The position numbers and the translations under genes are program-made. 58,432 nucleotides of DNA from an uncultured archaeon. Its GTDB lineage: Archaea; Hadarchaeota; Hadarchaeia; Hadarchaeales; Hadarchaeaceae. Positions 8,808-9,757 of the stretch are shown here, in pieces (within the stretch, counting starts at the first letter, position 1; every line of letters begins with the position of its first letter). The stretch lies in assembly GCA_937921735.1 (NCBI GenBank), contig CAKZTQ010000021.1, forward strand, positions 1 through 58,432, written 5' to 3'. Below the pieces are notes generated by a model, which did no database searches, was not told where the DNA came from, and saw only the letters and a list, made by a program, of their open reading frames with translations.

Positions 8808-9060
8808 TCATCGTAGGGGGTCGAATCCTTGCGGTACTACGCCTATTTTCTTTCTGACCTCCCTCGGATGTCGCCTGATATCATGGCCGCCGACCCACGC
8901 GGTCCCCGCGTAGGCGTAAGGACCGTTGCCAGCATCGCCACCCGTGGTGCTCTTGCCAGCGCCGTTGGGGCCGAGCAGACCGAAGATTTCCCCTTCCTCG
9001 ACCATCAGGTTTAGGCGATCCAACCGCCTTCCGTCCATCGAAACCTTGGTGAGCTCACGG
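8808..9060 (-). pseudogene. ABC transporter ATPase relic
   Basis: The minus strand codes the first part of an ABC ATPase ([21 protein letters not shown], Walker A) and then, after a break in homology ([12 protein letters not shown] where a continuous helix is expected), resumes as [26 protein letters not shown], which is the usual segment up to the Q-loop of DrrA-type exporter ATPases. It then stops. The signature motif, Walker B and H-loop are missing. The broken middle suggests a pair of compensating frameshifts, and the gene is cut to about a third. It lies between two tRNA genes, a common graveyard for integrated DNA. Not expected to be functional. Confidence 0.7.
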
Positions 9061-9139
9061 TTTCTACGATTGCCATAATGACCGATAGGTATCCCTTTTC
9101 GCTCAAAAAGTAAAAACATTGGGGCACCCAAACCGCACA

Positions 9140-9147
9140 TTTATAAG
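9140..9147 (+). promoter_or_regulatory. TATA box for the structured leader and zinc-ribbon gene
   Basis: TTTATAAG at 9140-9147. Archaeal transcription starts about 25 bases after the TATA centre, which predicts a start at 9169, exactly the first base of the self-complementary structure described next. Confidence 0.6.
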
Positions 9148-9168: not shown

Positions 9169-9229
9169 GGATACAACGGGGTAAAAACCCTTAGGAAAAC
9201 AGCTGGGCTGTTTTTCTTGAGTTGTATCC
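9169..9229 (+). ncRNA. three-way-junction RNA, leader of the zinc-ribbon gene or free small RNA
   Basis: Sixty-one bases fold almost completely. The outer stem GGATACAAC (9169-9177) pairs perfectly with GTTGTATCC (9221-9229). Hairpin one pairs GGGT (9179-9182) with ACCC (9187-9190) around AAAA. Hairpin two pairs 9194-9203 with 9207-9216, ten pairs with one G-U, around TGG. The junction strands are G, TTA and TTGA. The predicted transcription start falls on its first base. It lies 23 bases before the ATG of the zinc-ribbon gene, with the ribosome site ggag between. I match it to no riboswitch I know. It could act as a leader switch, or as a small RNA processed from the transcript. Confidence 0.6.
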
Positions 9230-9252
9230 AGAAAAGAAAGAGGAGAGTAGGA

Positions 9253-9423
9253 ATGGCGTACAGACAGTTTGGGCGCAGGGAAGGTTTCAAGCGAGAGATG
9301 TACAAAGCGATCTGCTCCGATTGCGGGGCCGAAACCGAGGTCCCATTTAAGCCGACCGAGGGCAGACCGGTGTACTGTAGGGCTTGCTTCCAAAAGCGCC
9401 GAGGGTCAAGGGGCCGGTACTAG
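9253..9423 (+). CDS. small zinc-ribbon protein (CxxC...CxxC)
   Basis: A 56-aa basic protein. It has one zinc-ribbon, CSDCGAETEVPFKPTEG followed by VYCRACF, i.e. CxxC, about 17 residues, CxxC, and a basic Lys/Arg/Gly tail (KRRGSRGRY). Proteins of this type are widespread in archaea and some bacteria; their function is not known to me beyond probable nucleic-acid binding. I choose the ATG at 9253 because gaggagag (9240-9247) is a good ribosome site and the longer start at 9217 lies inside the RNA stem. It is preceded by the three-way-junction RNA and followed by tRNA-Ile. Confidence 0.8.
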   Translation: MAYRQFGRREGFKREMYKAICSDCGAETEVPFKPTEGRPVYCRACFQKRRGSRGRY

Positions 9424-9552: not shown

Positions 9553-9628
9553 GGGCCCGTAGCTCAGCTTGGCTCGGAGCGCTCGGCTGATAACCGGGAG
9601 GTCCGGGGTTCGAATCCCCGCGGGCCCA
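9553..9628 (+). tRNA. tRNA-Ile(GAT)
   Basis: Cloverleaf on the plus strand: acceptor GGGCCCG with CGGGCCC, D arm GCTC...GAGC with the GG pair in the loop, anticodon stem CTCGG/CCGGG with loop CTGATAA (anticodon GAT), T arm CCGGGGTTCGAATCCCCG. No intron; discriminator A at 9628; CCA not encoded. A TATA-like ttttaaata is about 25-30 bases upstream (9523-9531). It marks the left edge of the AT-rich island, but I found no copy of its 3' end at the other edge near 27.6 kb. Confidence 0.95.
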
Positions 9629-9757
9629 CTCTTCGAGCAACTTGCTGTCGATAAGCGAGCTTTAAACACCAAATGGGGCTATTTGAATCTTTTAAAGAGA
9701 AGCTTCTATCCACAAATCTTTTAAATATACAACATAAAGAGGGATGGAGGGTGAAAA

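Follow-up and report, generated by a model that had tools for sequence, protein, structure and literature searches.

The segment at positions 9169-9229 of the window, by which we mean the whole 58,432-nucleotide stretch of Hadarchaeota DNA that was analysed, is almost certainly a real element, apparently a cis-acting leader RNA that has not been described before. Its structure is conserved, specific to the sense strand and specific to one gene. As expected of a cis-acting leader, it covaries and holds a constant position ahead of the coding sequence in a single gene family. This supports the reading given in a preliminary description, made from the sequence alone, of a real RNA at the +1 of a zinc-ribbon gene, and the leader very probably helps control that gene. 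To our knowledge, only a small number of structured mRNA leaders have been described in archaea. The present one is backed by covariation across the phylum and by a fixed promoter position, and it points to a candidate partner, the small zinc protein encoded downstream.

Anatomy and identity of the leader RNA

All features of the leader lie on the forward strand. A putative TATA box (tttataag, 9140-9147) precedes the RNA, which folds into a three-way junction. The 5' strand of the outer stem P1 (GGAUACAAC, 9169-9177), with a probable +1 at 9169, pairs with the 3' strand (GUUGUAUCC, 9221-9229). Inside P1 lie the P2 hairpin (9178-9191, 5 bp, loop AAAA), whose helix is kept while its sequence varies among relatives, and the P3 hairpin (9193-9217, 11 bp, loop UGG), whose AAAC/GUUU core is the best-conserved sequence of the element. 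A 23-base gap separates the end of P1 from the ATG at 9253; it is an A-rich linker carrying a predicted Shine-Dalgarno motif, GAGGAG (9240-9245), outside the RNA fold. The gene itself (9253-9423) encodes a 56-residue zinc-ribbon protein with a CxxC-x17-CxxC pattern, assigned to TIGR04272 / PF23477 (zf_Tbcl_2). The coordinates, TATA box and gap to the ATG had all been given exactly in the preliminary description. It had also counted stems of 9, 4 and 10 base pairs using 46 bases; the three-way junction stands, and the minimum free energy fold is slightly larger, with stems of 9, 5 and 11 bp and 50 of the 61 bases paired.

The folding energy of the leader is -28.2 kcal/mol, compared with a mean of -12.4 for shuffled sequences (z -5.9), and none of 200 shuffles was as good. 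A chance control over the 58-kb window, with 116,742 windows of 61 nt on both strands, returned about 12 other end-closed three-way junctions of similar or better energy. The 61-nt windows at or below -28.2 have a mean GC content of 0.73, and 9169-9229 is the only one among them with a GC content of 0.46 or less. The single fold is thus suggestive and no proof, and the earlier statement that chance formation is very unlikely was too strong for one sequence. It is the comparative data, namely 28 homologous leaders that fold alike and their covariation, that we find convincing.

An Rfam search detects an archaeal RNase P RNA in the 58-kb window. Over 9169-9229, Rfam 15 gives no family above its gathering cut-off, and the best matches under relaxed settings lie far below theirs (sucA on the antisense strand, 19.5 bits against 40; MIR9486, 12.6 against 100), which agrees with the earlier remark that no known riboswitch has this shape.

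Conservation and covariation across Hadarchaeota

Homologues of the zinc-ribbon gene were gathered by protein search and their leaders were then inspected. When each Hadarchaeota leader was folded alone, the three-way junction appeared in 28 of 28, comprising the family of the window and a second family of the same order, with paralogues included. Among these leaders the P2 sequence and the junction bases drift and the helices are kept. A covariance model was built from ten of the leaders; the window leader, itself among the sources of the model, scores 58 bits. In 28 genomes of the phylum the model gives 22 matches at E <= 0.01, and every one lies directly upstream of a zinc-ribbon gene, including the second and third gene copies of four genomes (G004, G005, G006 and G010). 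In G020, the contig stops right after the ATGGCATA start downstream of the leader match. The four genomes in which no zinc-ribbon gene was detected (G011, G019, G022 and G027) have no model match. Two weak matches (G006:C10 and G007:C2, E 0.4 and 0.7) were dismissed because they are not upstream of a zinc-ribbon gene.

The model is insensitive to distant members: two of the four leaders of the second family are marginal (E 0.04 to 0.9) and the other two are missed at the cut-off. Its search found no copy of the element among the non-Hadarchaeota loci. Among 297 relatives searched, the only match outside the family (G189, E 0.0072) was dismissed as about what chance would give over so many genomes. 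Three gene copies within the phylum (G009:C36, G001:C23 and G006:C35) have a reduced or altered element or none; in two reduced leaders (L146 of G009 and L140 of G001:C23), the P1-like arms seem to close one hairpin and not two.

This distribution bears on two ways in which the RNA might serve something beyond its own gene. A different RNA-binding protein or a small RNA could use the leader as its site, and the conserved sequence of the P3 core would suit such recognition. However, further target genes would then be expected, and none was found at E <= 0.01 in the 28 phylum genomes, so that this is an improbable account. The leader might also be cut off and act in trans as a small RNA, in keeping with its compactness and its start at the promoter. 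However, no copy stands alone, each being followed 13-27 nt later by the start codon of a zinc-ribbon gene, and we regard a role in trans as very unlikely.

In an alignment of the 22 copies that was fitted to the model, and in which 10 copies had served to build it, 88.7% of the cells are paired; displacing the partners by 1-3 columns lowers this to 43-55%. The same alignment holds two-sided changes in 14 pairs, a number reached by 2 of 500 shuffles, and its covariation score exceeds that of all 500. Independently of the model, we took the first seven pairs of P1 straight from the sequences of 27 leaders and placed them on a gene tree by plain parsimony reconstruction, the tree being drawn from the coding sequence of a short gene. 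The tree gives 11 two-sided compensatory changes in P1, with 17 one-sided changes in which pairing is retained and 2 in which it is lost. Both P1 and P3 covary. The compensatory changes whose absence the preliminary description had named as a refutation are abundant, and the covariance model of relatives that it had proposed as a check recovers copies across the phylum. Since MAFFT misaligned P2 and the second family, the support for P2 rests on the per-sequence folds; RNAalifold on the raw MAFFT alignment gave a partial structure only.

The nested inverted repeats of P1 and P3, placed 3' of the TATA box, could in principle form an operator in the DNA with no role for the RNA. The pairs themselves are asymmetric: G.U outnumbers A.C by 16 to 1 in P1 and by 30 to 10 in P3. 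In all 28 leaders, the sense strand also gives a more stable fold than the complementary strand. The G.U excess and the stability of the sense strand indicate selection on the sense RNA and not on DNA palindromes, and this strand bias disfavours the operator, which we consider most improbable.

Promoter position and possible modes of control

Each of the 27 copies that extend far enough upstream has a TATA-like motif whose end precedes P1 by 19-25 nt (mode 21), the motif list having been drawn up after the sequences were viewed. Given this fixed spacing, transcription probably starts at the first base of P1 or within a few bases of it. The start proposed earlier for the window is thereby supported from promoter spacing, as distinct from a mapped 5' end. 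Between the end of P1 and the start codon lie 21-27 nt in 26 copies; the other two have 13-16 nt there, and in them the Shine-Dalgarno site comes immediately after P1. In folded regions spanning leader and start, the site has a mean unpaired probability of 0.72 at 37 C and 0.83 at 75 C, the lowest value at 37 C, in one copy, being 0.10. Raising the temperature to 75 C reduces mean P1 pairing from 0.77 to 0.43 in a folding model that ignores salt and modification. Since the fold does not take in the Shine-Dalgarno site, we dropped the idea of an RNA thermometer that masks it; we also dropped transcription attenuation at a U-run, as a run of at least five U after P3 is missing from several copies.

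5'-terminal stem-loops can stabilise mRNA, and the Hadarchaeota stem resembles such stem-loops in starting at or near +1. The main rival to the explanation we favour takes the element as a stabiliser or insulator of the 5' end, in which a stem at +1 would block a 5'-to-3' exonuclease of the archaeal RNase J type and keep the linker and Shine-Dalgarno site open, with no specific ligand. P1 sits at the probable +1 in every copy with a readable promoter, pairing in the fold largely spares the Shine-Dalgarno region, and the drift of P2 and junction bases under kept helices fits such a role. However, a plain stem would suffice for it. Unlike the known stem-loops, the leader forms a three-way junction that covaries and has a conserved core in P3, and its retention across two families at this gene only suggests recognition. 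Stabilisation by itself is therefore rather unlikely, and it comes next after feedback control.

A riboswitch would instead have the junction bind a small molecule or metal and so control the zinc-ribbon gene. Like archaeal riboswitch classes and candidates such as crcB (PMC2864571), the element is a structured RNA in an archaeal 5' UTR, here a compact junction that matches no known class. In contrast to them, it lacks an Rfam match and serves a single, non-metabolic gene family. The junction segments are 0 to 6 nt long and vary in sequence, with no conserved bases in the 28 leaders, where a riboswitch would have highly conserved unpaired bases in its pocket, and no alternative fold that hides the Shine-Dalgarno site was found. 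The unconserved junction and a Shine-Dalgarno site that the fold does not include make a riboswitch less likely, and we give it little credence.

The protein offers a more specific partner. Its match to TIGR04272 scores 78 bits against the NCBI cut-off of 36. It is basic (14 K/R, 6 D/E, pI 9.9) with an R/G-rich N-terminus, and the median net charge of its relatives is +5. A structure model of moderate quality (pLDDT 74) has no significant structural match in the PDB, and a sequence search of the PDB gave only weak matches to unrelated zinc proteins. In the open-access literature, we found no function for the protein family and no publication on TIGR04272 or on the leader of this gene.

We tentatively favour feedback control, a reading that we hold somewhat short of probable, in which the zinc-ribbon protein, basic and rich in Arg and Gly, binds the leader of its own mRNA. 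Segment 9169-9229 probably forms the 5' end of that mRNA, with P1 beginning at about +1, P2 and P3 branching off, and the A-rich linker with the Shine-Dalgarno site following. When abundant, the protein would bind this leader, and once bound it could lower initiation at the Shine-Dalgarno site just 3' of P1 or alter mRNA decay, a mode of control comparable to that of ribosomal-protein leaders. We infer this from the exclusive linkage to one gene, the retention of the element at paralogues, the basic Arg/Gly-rich protein and the structured leaders of other phyla. As in autogenous elements, the RNA is linked to the gene of a presumed RNA-binding protein in 22 of 22 phylum matches, paralogues included. 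Against feedback, repression would need steric or decay effects, given that the fold does not include the Shine-Dalgarno site; the reduced, altered or absent element at three gene copies and the missing PDB match also count against it.

The element is a new RNA family whose nearest kind is the r-leader. A few archaeal r-leader candidates have been described, including those of S15, eL15 and L4, and unrelated leaders have been reported for one r-protein (PMC7247131). Like r-leaders, the Hadarchaeota RNA is a conserved structured 5' leader of one gene family encoding a small basic protein, with support from covariation and promoter position. It differs in that the gene downstream, a TIGR04272 / PF23477 zinc ribbon, is no known ribosomal protein gene, and in that binding is here a proposal. 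Should the protein indeed bind the leader of its mRNA, a function would be assigned to a widespread but unnamed family of archaeal proteins, and archaeal feedback control would gain a new example outside the ribosomal proteins.

Leaders in other archaea and gene neighbourhood

In other archaeal phyla, leaders of the zinc-ribbon gene family have z below -3 in 18% of 73 cases, against 1% of 317 control upstream regions; in Hadarchaeota, where several loci represent the same genome twice, the figures are 61% and 4%. The family may be feedback-controlled through its own leaders across archaea, each phylum having evolved a fold of its own: Hadarchaeota the three-way junction, Bathyarchaeota and Thermoplasmata-like archaea their hairpins. 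We regard this generalisation as unlikely. If it is true, the zinc-ribbon protein would be a general archaeal RNA-binding regulator.

Six Bathyarchaeota loci (L111, L098, L082, L054, L043 and L069) have their own leader hairpin of the GUAUAC..GUAUAC type with an inner stem, a plausible structure whose covariation was not above that of shuffles. Five Thermoplasmata-like and Euryarchaeota loci (L052, L063, L067, L090 and L109) share a GCG..GAGYGC hairpin just before AGGAG, with weak covariation over these five sequences. In two Methanocalculaceae loci (L104 and L088), the predicted leader hairpin contains the GGAG Shine-Dalgarno motif of the gene, an arrangement that would permit direct translational control.

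Around the zinc-ribbon gene, we found no protein-coding neighbour common to most loci that could be an operon partner. A tRNA-Ile gene lies just downstream of the zinc-ribbon gene in the window (9553-9629, forward strand) and, in five relatives (L115, L121, L123, L125 and L132), about 360-600 nt 3' of where the leader begins, so the gene order is partly old. On the reverse strand at 8808-9140, the window holds what appears to be a decayed, divergent ABC-transporter ATPase with a Walker A motif after which a stretch is missing, and longer divergent ABC ATPase frames occupy the same place in several relatives (L115, L118, L121, L128 and L133).
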